Below the pieces are notes generated by a model. That model did not search any database and was not told where the DNA came from. It saw nothing but the letters and a program-made list of their open reading frames with translations. From contig JALSPN010000007.1 in NCBI GenBank assembly GCA_026985945.1, positions 1-21,168 on the forward strand: a DNA stretch of 21,168 bases, given 5' to 3'. Below are positions 17,912-20,147 of this stretch, piece by piece. Positions within the stretch are counted from its first letter, which is position 1. Every line of letters starts with the position of its first letter. The position numbers were made by a program, and so were the translations under genes. This DNA comes from Thermodesulfobacteriales bacterium. Its GTDB lineage: Bacteria > Desulfobacterota > Thermodesulfobacteria > Thermodesulfobacteriales > Thermodesulfatatoraceae.

Positions 17912-19540
17912 ATGCGTCTCTGGTTCCTGAGTTTCTTTCTGGTCCTTTTTTTAATAACTCCCTGTAAGGCGGATTTTGTAAGGGGCCAGAATGCAGGGGC
18001 CCAAATAGCCTCTCCCAAATATTTTGCCCCTCCGCCCCTTACGGCAGACCATTCCAAGTTTGAGGAATTGAAAAAAGATTTTAAAAGCCCTGAAGAAGTT
18101 ACCAGGGCCTGTCTTAAGTGTCACAACAAGGCGGGAGAACAGCTTAAAAAGAGTCTTCATTTTACCTGGACCTGGAAGGGCAAAGATGGCCGCCTGCTGG
18201 GAAAGGCCCATGTCATCAACAACTACTGAGTGGCGGTAACTTCCAACTGGTGCAGGTGCACCAGCTGCCATGCCGGTTACGGGTGGAAGGATAAAAACTT
18301 CGACTTCTCTGAAGAAAAAATCGATTGTCTGGTATGCCACGATACCACTGGCACCTACAAAAAATTTCCCACCGATTGCGGCTATCCTCCTCTAAAAGAC
18401 AAGCTCTTTGCCGGAAAGAAGCTTTTTAAAGCGGTAAATCTTTCCTATGTAGCCCAGCATGTGGGGCATACTACCCGGGAGTCCTGCGGTAAATGCCATT
18501 TTTACAGTGGTGGAGGAGACGGGGTGAAGCGCGGAGATATAGATTCTACCCTCATCGCTCCCTCAAAAGAGATAGACGTGCACATGGATGCCAAGGGGCT
18601 TAATTTTACCTGCAGCACCTGTCATACCACGGTGGCCCACGAGATAGATGGCAGGCATTATGACAGCCCGGCTCCGGGCAGAAGGGAGCTTGCTTTTCCG
18701 CGCTATGAAGGGCACCGGGTGAGGTGTGAGTCCTGCCATGGGGTGCGGCCGCACAAACCTTCCAAAAAGCTCTTTGACTGGCGCCTGGTAAAACTGAATG
18801 ATCACACCGACCGGGTGGCCTGTCAGACCTGCCATATTCCCCTTTACGCCAGGGGTAAGCCCACCAACATCTACTGGGACTGGTCCACAGCAGGAAGACA
18901 CAAAGACGGAAAACCCATCGTGAAAAAGGGGCCTTTCGGGAGGCCCGAATATCATACCAAAAAGGGGACTCTCAAATGGGGAAAAAATCTGGTCCCGGTT
19001 TATTTCTGGTATAACGGCACCTATTCCTATGTTTTGCCCGGAGAAAGGGTAGAGAAAAGAGAACCGGTGGTGATTATCAGGCCCAACGGTTCAGCTGAGG
19101 ATCCTGAAGCCCGTATTTTTCCCTTCAAGCCCCATTTTGGCAAACAACCTTATGATCCCGTAAACAAATTGTTGATTGTTCCCAAGCTCTTTGGCCCCAA
19201 AGGTAGTGGTGCCTTCTGGGCAGAGTTTGATTGGAAAAAATCGGCTGCTGCGGGAATGGCTGCCGCAGGCCTGCCCTTTAGCGGACAGGTAGATTTTATA
19301 GAAACCGTTTACTACCACGCCCTTTCCCACATGGTAGCTCCGAAAGACAAGGCCCTTAAATGTGAGGCCTGTCATATTCGCCAGGGAGGAAGGCTGGCCA
19401 ATATTTCTGGAGTCTATCTCCCGGGAAGAGATCGGCTCGTGGAGCTTGACAAAATAGGCCAGGCTCTTTGTTTGATCGCCTTACTTTTTGTCTCTGTTCA
19501 CGGTCTGGCAAGGATCATTATCTCTTTGAAGCGCAAGTAG
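17912..19540 (+). CDS. otr: Octahaem cytochrome c, tetrathionate reductase family, with in-frame TGA read as selenocysteine
   Basis: 542 codons if TGA 18227-18229 (codon 106) is read through. Signal peptide about 1-20 (cleavage after CKA). The eight CxxCH motifs have His at 71, 120, 143, 196, 238, 276, 308 and 488; only the first precedes the TGA. GGGDGVK (200-206) after haem 4 recalls the Asp/Lys active-site segment of Shewanella octaheme tetrathionate reductase (family from memory). Residues about 515-536 form a C-terminal membrane helix, so the protein should be anchored with its haems in the periplasm. Relatives as I recall them have Cys at the TGA position (VINNxC), making Sec a conservative swap. 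A SECIS-like stem-loop follows. The segment after TGA lacks an RBS and signal peptide, so it is not a separate gene. The RBS GGAGG precedes 17912. A nonsense pseudogene remains the alternative. Confidence 0.85.
18227..18270 (+). promoter_or_regulatory. Bacterial SECIS-like element with its TGA
   Basis: After TGA (18227-18229) and one G, lower stem TGGCGG (18231-18236) pairs with CTGCCA (18265-18270), with one G-U. A 10-base bulge (18237-18246) leads to the perfect 7-bp upper stem CTGGTGC/GCACCAG (18247-18253/18258-18264), closed by apical loop AGGT (18254-18257). The UGA-to-loop distance is 24 bases, and G is at loop position 2, both within the known range for bacterial SECIS. The apical GCAGGT resembles that of E. 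coli fdhF. The stem doubles as codons for haem motif 2. Confidence 0.75.
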
Positions 19541-19550
19541 GAGGTGAGCC

Positions 19551-20147
19551 ATGAAGCAGAAACTTTATTTATATTCCCGTTTTGAGAGGCTCTGGCACTG
19601 GGCCCAGGCTATTTTGATTATATTTCTCCTCCTCACAGGTTTTGAAATTCACGGCAGCCTGGAGCTCTTTGGTTATGAAAAGGCCTATCTCTGGCACGTC
19701 TATGCCGGAGTGGCCCTGGTGGTGCTTACGGCCTTTGCTATTTTCTGGCACCTTACTACCGGTGCCTGGCGCCATTACTGGCCGGTAAAAGAAAAGATCC
19801 CCCAAATTTGCTATTACTATGCCGTTGGTATCTTCCGCGGTGAGCCCCATCCTTTTGAAAAACGCCCGGATCAAAAACTCAACCCCTTACAGAGGCTGGC
19901 CTATCTGCTTCTAAAGCTGATACTTTATCCTTTACAGTTCATTACCGCCTTTTTGCTGGTTTCTTATCAGTGGTGGCCCCAGCTGGGGATAAAGACAACC
20001 TTTCAAAAGGTGGCCTATTATCATACGGCCGGGGCCTTTGCCTTCCTTTTCTTTTTGATCATTCATGCCTACCTCTCAACGACCGGAAGGCCCTGGTATT
20101 CTCACCTGCGAGGCATAATTCTCGGCTGGGAAGAAGTAGGATGTTAA
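19551..20147 (+). CDS. Cytochrome b561-type membrane subunit (partner of octahaem reductase)
   Basis: 198-residue integral membrane di-haem cytochrome b of the Ni/Fe-hydrogenase/thiosulfate reductase b-subunit type. Four hydrophobic helices lie at about 16-33, 46-68, 117-138 and 155-176. Candidate haem-ligand histidines are H16, H49, H67, H158 and H172. A strong RBS GGAGG sits in the 10-base gap after the octahaem gene, so they form one operon. The obvious role is to exchange electrons between menaquinone and the periplasmic octahaem enzyme. Direction (reduction of tetrathionate or nitrogen oxides, or oxidation) is not shown by the sequence. Confidence 0.9.
   Translation: MKQKLYLYSRFERLWHWAQAILIIFLLLTGFEIHGSLELFGYEKAYLWHVYAGVALVVLTAFAIFWHLTTGAWRHYWPVKEKIPQICYYYAVGIFRGEPHPFEKRPDQKLNPLQRLAYLLLKLILYPLQFITAFLLVSYQWWPQLGIKTTFQKVAYYHTAGAFAFLFFLIIHAYLSTTGRPWYSHLRGIILGWEEVGC

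Follow-up and report, generated by a model that had tools for sequence, protein, structure and literature searches.

An in-frame UGA codon, very probably read as selenocysteine, in place of a conserved cysteine in octahaem cytochromes of the tetrathionate reductase family

The window analysed here is a stretch of 21,168 nucleotides, contig 7 of a 1.60-Mb draft genome (283 contigs, 83% complete) of a thermophilic sulfur bacterium, and it contains a gene for an octahaem c-type cytochrome of the tetrathionate reductase family followed by a gene for a cytochrome b561-type membrane protein (Table 1). The cytochrome frame starts at an ATG (17912) with CGGAGG, a good ribosome-binding sequence, upstream of it, and runs for 105 codons to a TGA at 18227-18229 (codon 106), the only in-frame TGA between 17912 and 19540, beyond which the same frame remains open up to a TAG at 19538-19540. 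When the TGA is read through, the translated product has 542 residues, with CxxCH motifs at residues 67, 116, 139, 192, 234, 272, 304, and 484, one of them ahead of the TGA and seven past it. A preliminary description of this DNA had given 105 codons, a TGA and a further 436 codons with seven of the eight haem motifs, and had placed the TGA after VINN, ten residues ahead of haem motif 2; translation and motif positions agree with this layout, the sequence itself reading VINNY-TGA.

The 542-residue readthrough product scores 583.8 bits against the TIGR04315 profile, for which the curated cut-off is 375, and presents, by eye, an N-terminal signal-like stretch and a C-terminal hydrophobic helix. 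One solved structure is matched, 1sp3_A (E = 3.4e-112, residues 52-495), entitled 'cytochrome c, putative' in the structure record, which we take to be the structure of the octahaem tetrathionate reductase (OTR) of Shewanella oneidensis. Mowat and colleagues are said to have described, in 2004, Lys153 of the Shewanella OTR as an unusual ligand of the substrate haem (haem 2), and Cys64 reportedly sits, according to the same work, within the active-site cleft. Among the 155 distinct family genes compared below, the column of Lys206 holds Lys in 155 of 155 and that of Asp203 holds Asp in 139.

Table 1. Coordinates of the features of the cytochrome locus in the window.
Feature	Coordinates	Strand	Basis
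Octahaem c-type cytochrome gene (tetrathionate reductase family)	17912..19540	+	Translation; TIGR04315; 1sp3_A; eight CxxCH
TGA codon 106, very probably Sec, in the column of Cys64 of 1sp3	18227..18229	+	Translation; alignment; homologue comparison
Putative type-1 SECIS hairpin: CTGGTGC (18247-18253), loop AGGT (18254-18257), GCACCAG (18258-18264)	18247..18264	+	Folding; comparison; codon conservation
Haem-2 attachment motif CTSCH, residues 116-120	18257..18271	+	Motif scan; overlaps SECIS hairpin
Asp203 and Lys206, equivalents of Asp150 and Lys153 in the alignment with 1sp3	18518..18529	+	Alignment
Membrane partner of the cytochrome b561 type (PF01292), encoded by the next gene, 10 nt past the TAG	19551..20147	+	Profile match

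The codon at the position of the TGA was compared across 155 distinct genes, obtained from the pool of all 162 loci, and was found to be TGA in 38, which come from 37 genomes, a Cys codon in 116 and a Thr codon in one. The column equivalent to codon 106 therefore holds Cys in 116 of the 117 non-TGA genes, as the preliminary description had expected of the homologues. The samples behind these figures were of three kinds. In a first sample of 60 genomes, including the window's own, a match was present in 16 and a match with a single TGA in nine, at the same codon in 9/9. In a GTDB scan, the best 80 of 168 candidate stretches carried TGA in nine cases, Cys in 71 and any other codon in none, the window itself also carrying TGA. 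In a phylum sample of 395 genomes, with matches counted at E 1e-60 or better, 78 matches were found in 69 genomes (31 TGA, 46 Cys, one Thr), and the TGA form, present in 30 of the 395 genomes and making up 31 of the 78 matches, is not rare in the phylum. The gene with Thr (L179; ACT) stands alone among the 155 in lacking both Sec and Cys at the site.

A nonsense mutation, or a sequencing error, in a decaying gene typically shows up as a lone in-frame stop in a single draft assembly. This explanation is refuted by the recurrence of the TGA and retains next to no probability: TGA occupies this codon in 38 distinct genes drawn from 37 genomes, which is not chance, and these include other assemblies as well as the named isolates Thermosulfurimonas dismutans S95 and Salidesulfovibrio brasiliensis JCM 12178. 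Eight CxxCH motifs are found in each of the 38 TGA genes, no second TGA occurs in any of them from 60 codons upstream of the site to the last haem motif, and both the codons and a hairpin downstream of the TGA are conserved.

The locus could also be read as encoding two proteins, a first piece of 105 residues and a second, a cytochrome of 436 residues, whose start would be GTG 18230, directly after the TGA. A GTG or ATG follows the TGA in 14 of the 38 TGA genes, and database pieces starting just past such a position exist: the top 120 out of 6,770 database proteins comprise 18 short (402-438 residues) and 102 full-length entries, and 16 of these 18 short proteins start within a few residues past the TGA position. 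In the remaining 24 TGA genes, however, the codon after the TGA is ATC, ATT, ATA or GTC, and the Cys genes consist of one frame; furthermore, no ribosome-binding sequence is seen by eye before 18230, and the second piece would be without the signal peptide and haem 1. The variety of the next codon, the single frame of the Cys genes and the lack of a visible ribosome-binding sequence lead us to reject the two-protein reading as highly improbable. One of the short database pieces (P0007) carries the name Thermodesulfatator autotrophicus. Among the 102 full-length entries of the same set, two (P0016 and P0019) show the NWC motif of the Sec type together with a residue printed as Cys.

A hairpin of at least seven base pairs that follows the loop and spacing rule of bacterial SECIS elements is found in 38/38 TGA genes, whereas 6/116 Cys genes have a 7-bp hairpin that obeys this rule at any position. 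The hairpins of the TGA genes fall into two types. In type 1 (32 genes), the sequence is CUGGUGC-AGGU-GCACCAG or a close variant (loop AGUU in three genes, a G-U pair in two, a U-A outer pair in one), the loop lies 24 nt after the UGA, and the seven pairs are present in 32/32; the hairpin of the window belongs to this type, with 7 bp, a loop starting 24 nt after the TGA, and a 3' strand contained within the haem-2 codons Cys-Thr-Ser of the motif CTSCH. In type 2 (six genes), the sequence is GCAACGA-GGC-UCGUUGC, 20 nt after the UGA and with seven pairs in 6/6, and the 3' strand spans the Arg codon before the haem-2 motif and the first Cys codon of the motif. According to the bacterial SECIS model of PMC13188914, the loop measures 3-9 nt and has a G among its first two positions, the stem has 4-16 bp, the spacing is 16-37 nt, and the minimum free energy (MFE) is -7.5 kcal/mol or lower; hairpins of both types conform to the model as given in that source, being spaced at 24 nt (type 1) and 20 nt (type 2) and having the required G. 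A 64-nt stretch of the window folds with an MFE of -23.9 kcal/mol, at a folding z-score of only -0.87, meaning that the fold is not unusual for its composition, and an Rfam scan of 18150-18400 returned no family above threshold and one chance match to a CRISPR repeat (E 0.61).

A type-1 stem in register occurs in 0/116 Cys genes and a stem in the type-2 register in 2/116 (L063 and L173). The first of these, from a Desulfatitalea MAG, has TGT at the Sec column, an intact and identical type-2 hairpin, and a piece of SelB in its genome, and is probably a gene that recently exchanged Sec for Cys and retains its SECIS as a relic. The second has seven pairs in the type-2 register with a different sequence, which may be chance or a relic.

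The codons of the hairpins vary much less than those elsewhere in these genes. Arg is encoded by AGG in 29/29 type-1 hairpins, where the remainder of each gene would predict 17%, and type-2 hairpins use GCT in 6/6 (11% expected) and CGT in 6/6 (12% expected) on the same basis. For single type-1 genes, between 1 and 49% of synonymous shuffles equal the hairpin, whereas for type 2 the range is 2 to 6%. The type-1 stem is largely set by its residues W-C-R-C-T, which makes shuffling a weak test for that type, and codon identity was therefore used instead. Covariation lends slight support, since the stems hardly vary within a type. The 5' strand of type 1 spells Trp-Cys, and Cys114 is accordingly found in 32/32 type-1 genes versus 0/116 Cys genes in the DNA-checked set. 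Neither Trp113, also present in 25/116 Cys genes, nor the Ala114 of type 2, also present in 27/116, is a mark of Sec, and the type-2 genes, being without Cys114, indicate that this residue is not needed wherever Sec is present.

The genome to which the window belongs encodes a complete machinery for selenocysteine. A tRNA-Sec with anticodon tca (UCA) scores 82.9 bits, a second tRNA-Sec match above cut-off being a tRNA-Ser according to ARAGORN, and SelB, SelA, and SelD score 395, 630, and 385.5 bits, respectively; selA, selB, selC and selD, for which the preliminary description had proposed a search, are thus all present. The selD gene itself has an in-frame TGA (context AAGUASK), and each of two matches to formate dehydrogenase (Fdh-alpha), one of them above the family cut-off, has one TGA (selD and Fdh loci L111, L183, and L184). 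The presence of TGA within the selD and fdh frames could also be expected if TGA were reassigned to an ordinary amino acid in the host, but SelD and Fdh-alpha both count among the classical selenoproteins (Table 1 of PMC13188914), the genome has tRNA-Sec and SelB, and TGA is the stop of 5/19 window frames checked. The latter bears out the earlier statement that TGA ends the frames designated queH, mtnA, suhB, nudix and GGDEF, names taken over from the preliminary description. Reassignment of the code is refuted by these ordinary stops and by the full Sec machinery, and can be given hardly any credence.

Across the genomes with the TGA form, SelB was found in 35/37 (L033/G227 and L081/G290, with SelB at the same place, each being counted once), and was not found, at a limit of E 1e-70, in two, G120 and G418, which are both drafts. 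SelB is also present in 37/38 examined genomes without the TGA form, and hence permits the Sec form but does not predict it or discriminate between genomes with and without it. Taken together, the conserved TGA/Cys column, the SECIS hairpins, the conservation of their codons, the Sec machinery, and the relic in L063 argue, from sequence comparison, that UGA-106 is very probably decoded as Sec, in place of a conserved Cys.

In an unrooted tree of 105 of the 155 genes, built by a quick method and with the columns around the site left out, the 28 long type-1 genes cluster together (SH-aLRT 99), the four short type-1 genes form a separate and distant group (SH-aLRT 100), and the six type-2 genes are scattered within a group that holds 27 Cys genes. 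At least seven changes between Sec and Cys are needed on this tree, on which gain and loss are not separable. The existence of two unlike stems and of one relic suggests that there have been both gains and losses of Sec. One genome (G170) has three family members, a type-2 Sec gene, a Cys gene and a short type-1 Sec gene (L141, L149, and L175).

In the loci retrieved, 28/32 type-1 and 6/6 type-2 genes have a relative of the b561 gene on their own strand, the four type-1 genes without it being the four short-form genes. It was also found in 76/103 non-TGA loci whose counted flank was 600 nt or longer, with all 27 loci without it falling in the short group of the tree; these counts use same-strand presence only, positions relative to the frame end being unreliable where the true stop is TGA. 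The pairing of an octahaem cytochrome with b561 has already been proposed by Mardanov et al. (PMC4911364) for TDIS_1882/1883 of T. dismutans, and the string 'selen' is absent from the main text of that paper.

A working mechanism can be outlined on this basis. The gene would yield a full-length octahaem cytochrome, presumably exported, in which UGA-106 is very probably read as Sec by SelB and tRNA-Sec under the direction of the hairpin just downstream. The Sec would take the place of the conserved Cys beside the lysine-ligated substrate haem, a position given by alignment, and the neighbouring b561 protein could hand quinol electrons to the cytochrome. The selenolate might then attack or hold tetrathionate, thiosulfate or polysulfide, giving a Se-S adduct that would be reduced by the haem. 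This attack on a sulfur-sulfur substrate is a tentative proposal, to which we would assign somewhat less than an even chance, and is made by analogy with TsdA, the active-site Cys of which forms a covalent adduct with thiosulfate, a Cys-thiosulfonate (PMC5146829).

A Sec residue could also serve some other chemistry, such as the reduction of nitrite, hydroxylamine or selenium oxyanions, or the binding of a metal beside the haem, and the likelihood of this comes close to even. Several of the TGA genes belong to lineages that we take to be sulfate-reducing or sulfur-disproportionating, which speaks against such chemistry, although lineage is weak evidence. On the other side, the Shewanella OTR shows in vitro reductase activity towards nitrite and hydroxylamine (Atkinson et al. 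2007, quoted in PMC4911364), and ExtKL, a predicted multihaem selenoprotein of Geobacter, has been linked to selenite reduction (PMC5877670).

Selenolate attack on sulfur-sulfur bonds can be combined with the history of the site in a broader scheme, which we put forward as possible while regarding it as rather less than evenly likely. Sec would have been installed at a single haem-side site by separately built SECIS hairpins, represented by two unlike stems in three sets of the tree. With the 3' strand overlapping the haem-2 codons, the haem motif would template the recoding signal, and the RNA would in turn fix Cys114, a residue close by, in every type-1 gene. The selenolate at the c-type haem would cleave S-S bonds in sulfur-disproportionating and sulfate-reducing bacteria.

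The preliminary description had known of no selenoprotein described in this family, which proves right only in part. Table 1 of PMC13188914 (May 2026), which covers 119 selenoprotein families and subfamilies, has a row for 'Tetrathionate reductase family octaheme c-type cytochrome' (TIGR04315, WP_331457571.1, 'GenBank annotated'), with one Sec and the motif not available. No paper on the Sec site, SECIS or function of TIGR04315 was found among the open-licence PMC matches listed, and the available portions of PMC7759655, PMC2628731, and PMC7463578 contain no description of them. The family is known as a selenoprotein annotation; the detail added here concerns the position of Sec, both SECIS types, the relic and the spread. 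The row for WP_331457571.1 resembles the protein of the window in family and in its single Sec, and differs from it, as tabulated, in being an annotation only, without Sec position, SECIS, spread or partner.

Selenium beside a catalytic c-type haem has been little explored, and the one other predicted case that we met is ExtKL (NF040886; Table 1 of PMC13188914, PMC5877670), likewise a predicted multihaem cytochrome with one Sec. ExtKL belongs to a different family, the protein of the window having no match to NF040886 at E 0.001. The dihaem thiosulfate dehydrogenase/tetrathionate reductase TsdA (PMC5146829) is alike in placing a chalcogen side chain at an active-site haem and in the proposed covalent adduct with the substrate, but it is an unrelated dihaem protein in which the Cys is a haem ligand, and the available portion of that source makes no mention of Sec. 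The closest known system is the S. oneidensis OTR (1sp3), homologous over residues 52-495 and sharing the equivalents of Lys153 and Asp150 and the column of Cys64, from which the protein of the window differs in its probable Sec in place of Cys64, its C-terminal hydrophobic helix, its b561 partner, and the Trp-Cys before haem motif 2. Since the enzyme occurs in a Cys and a Sec form alongside each other, the contribution of selenium is directly testable.
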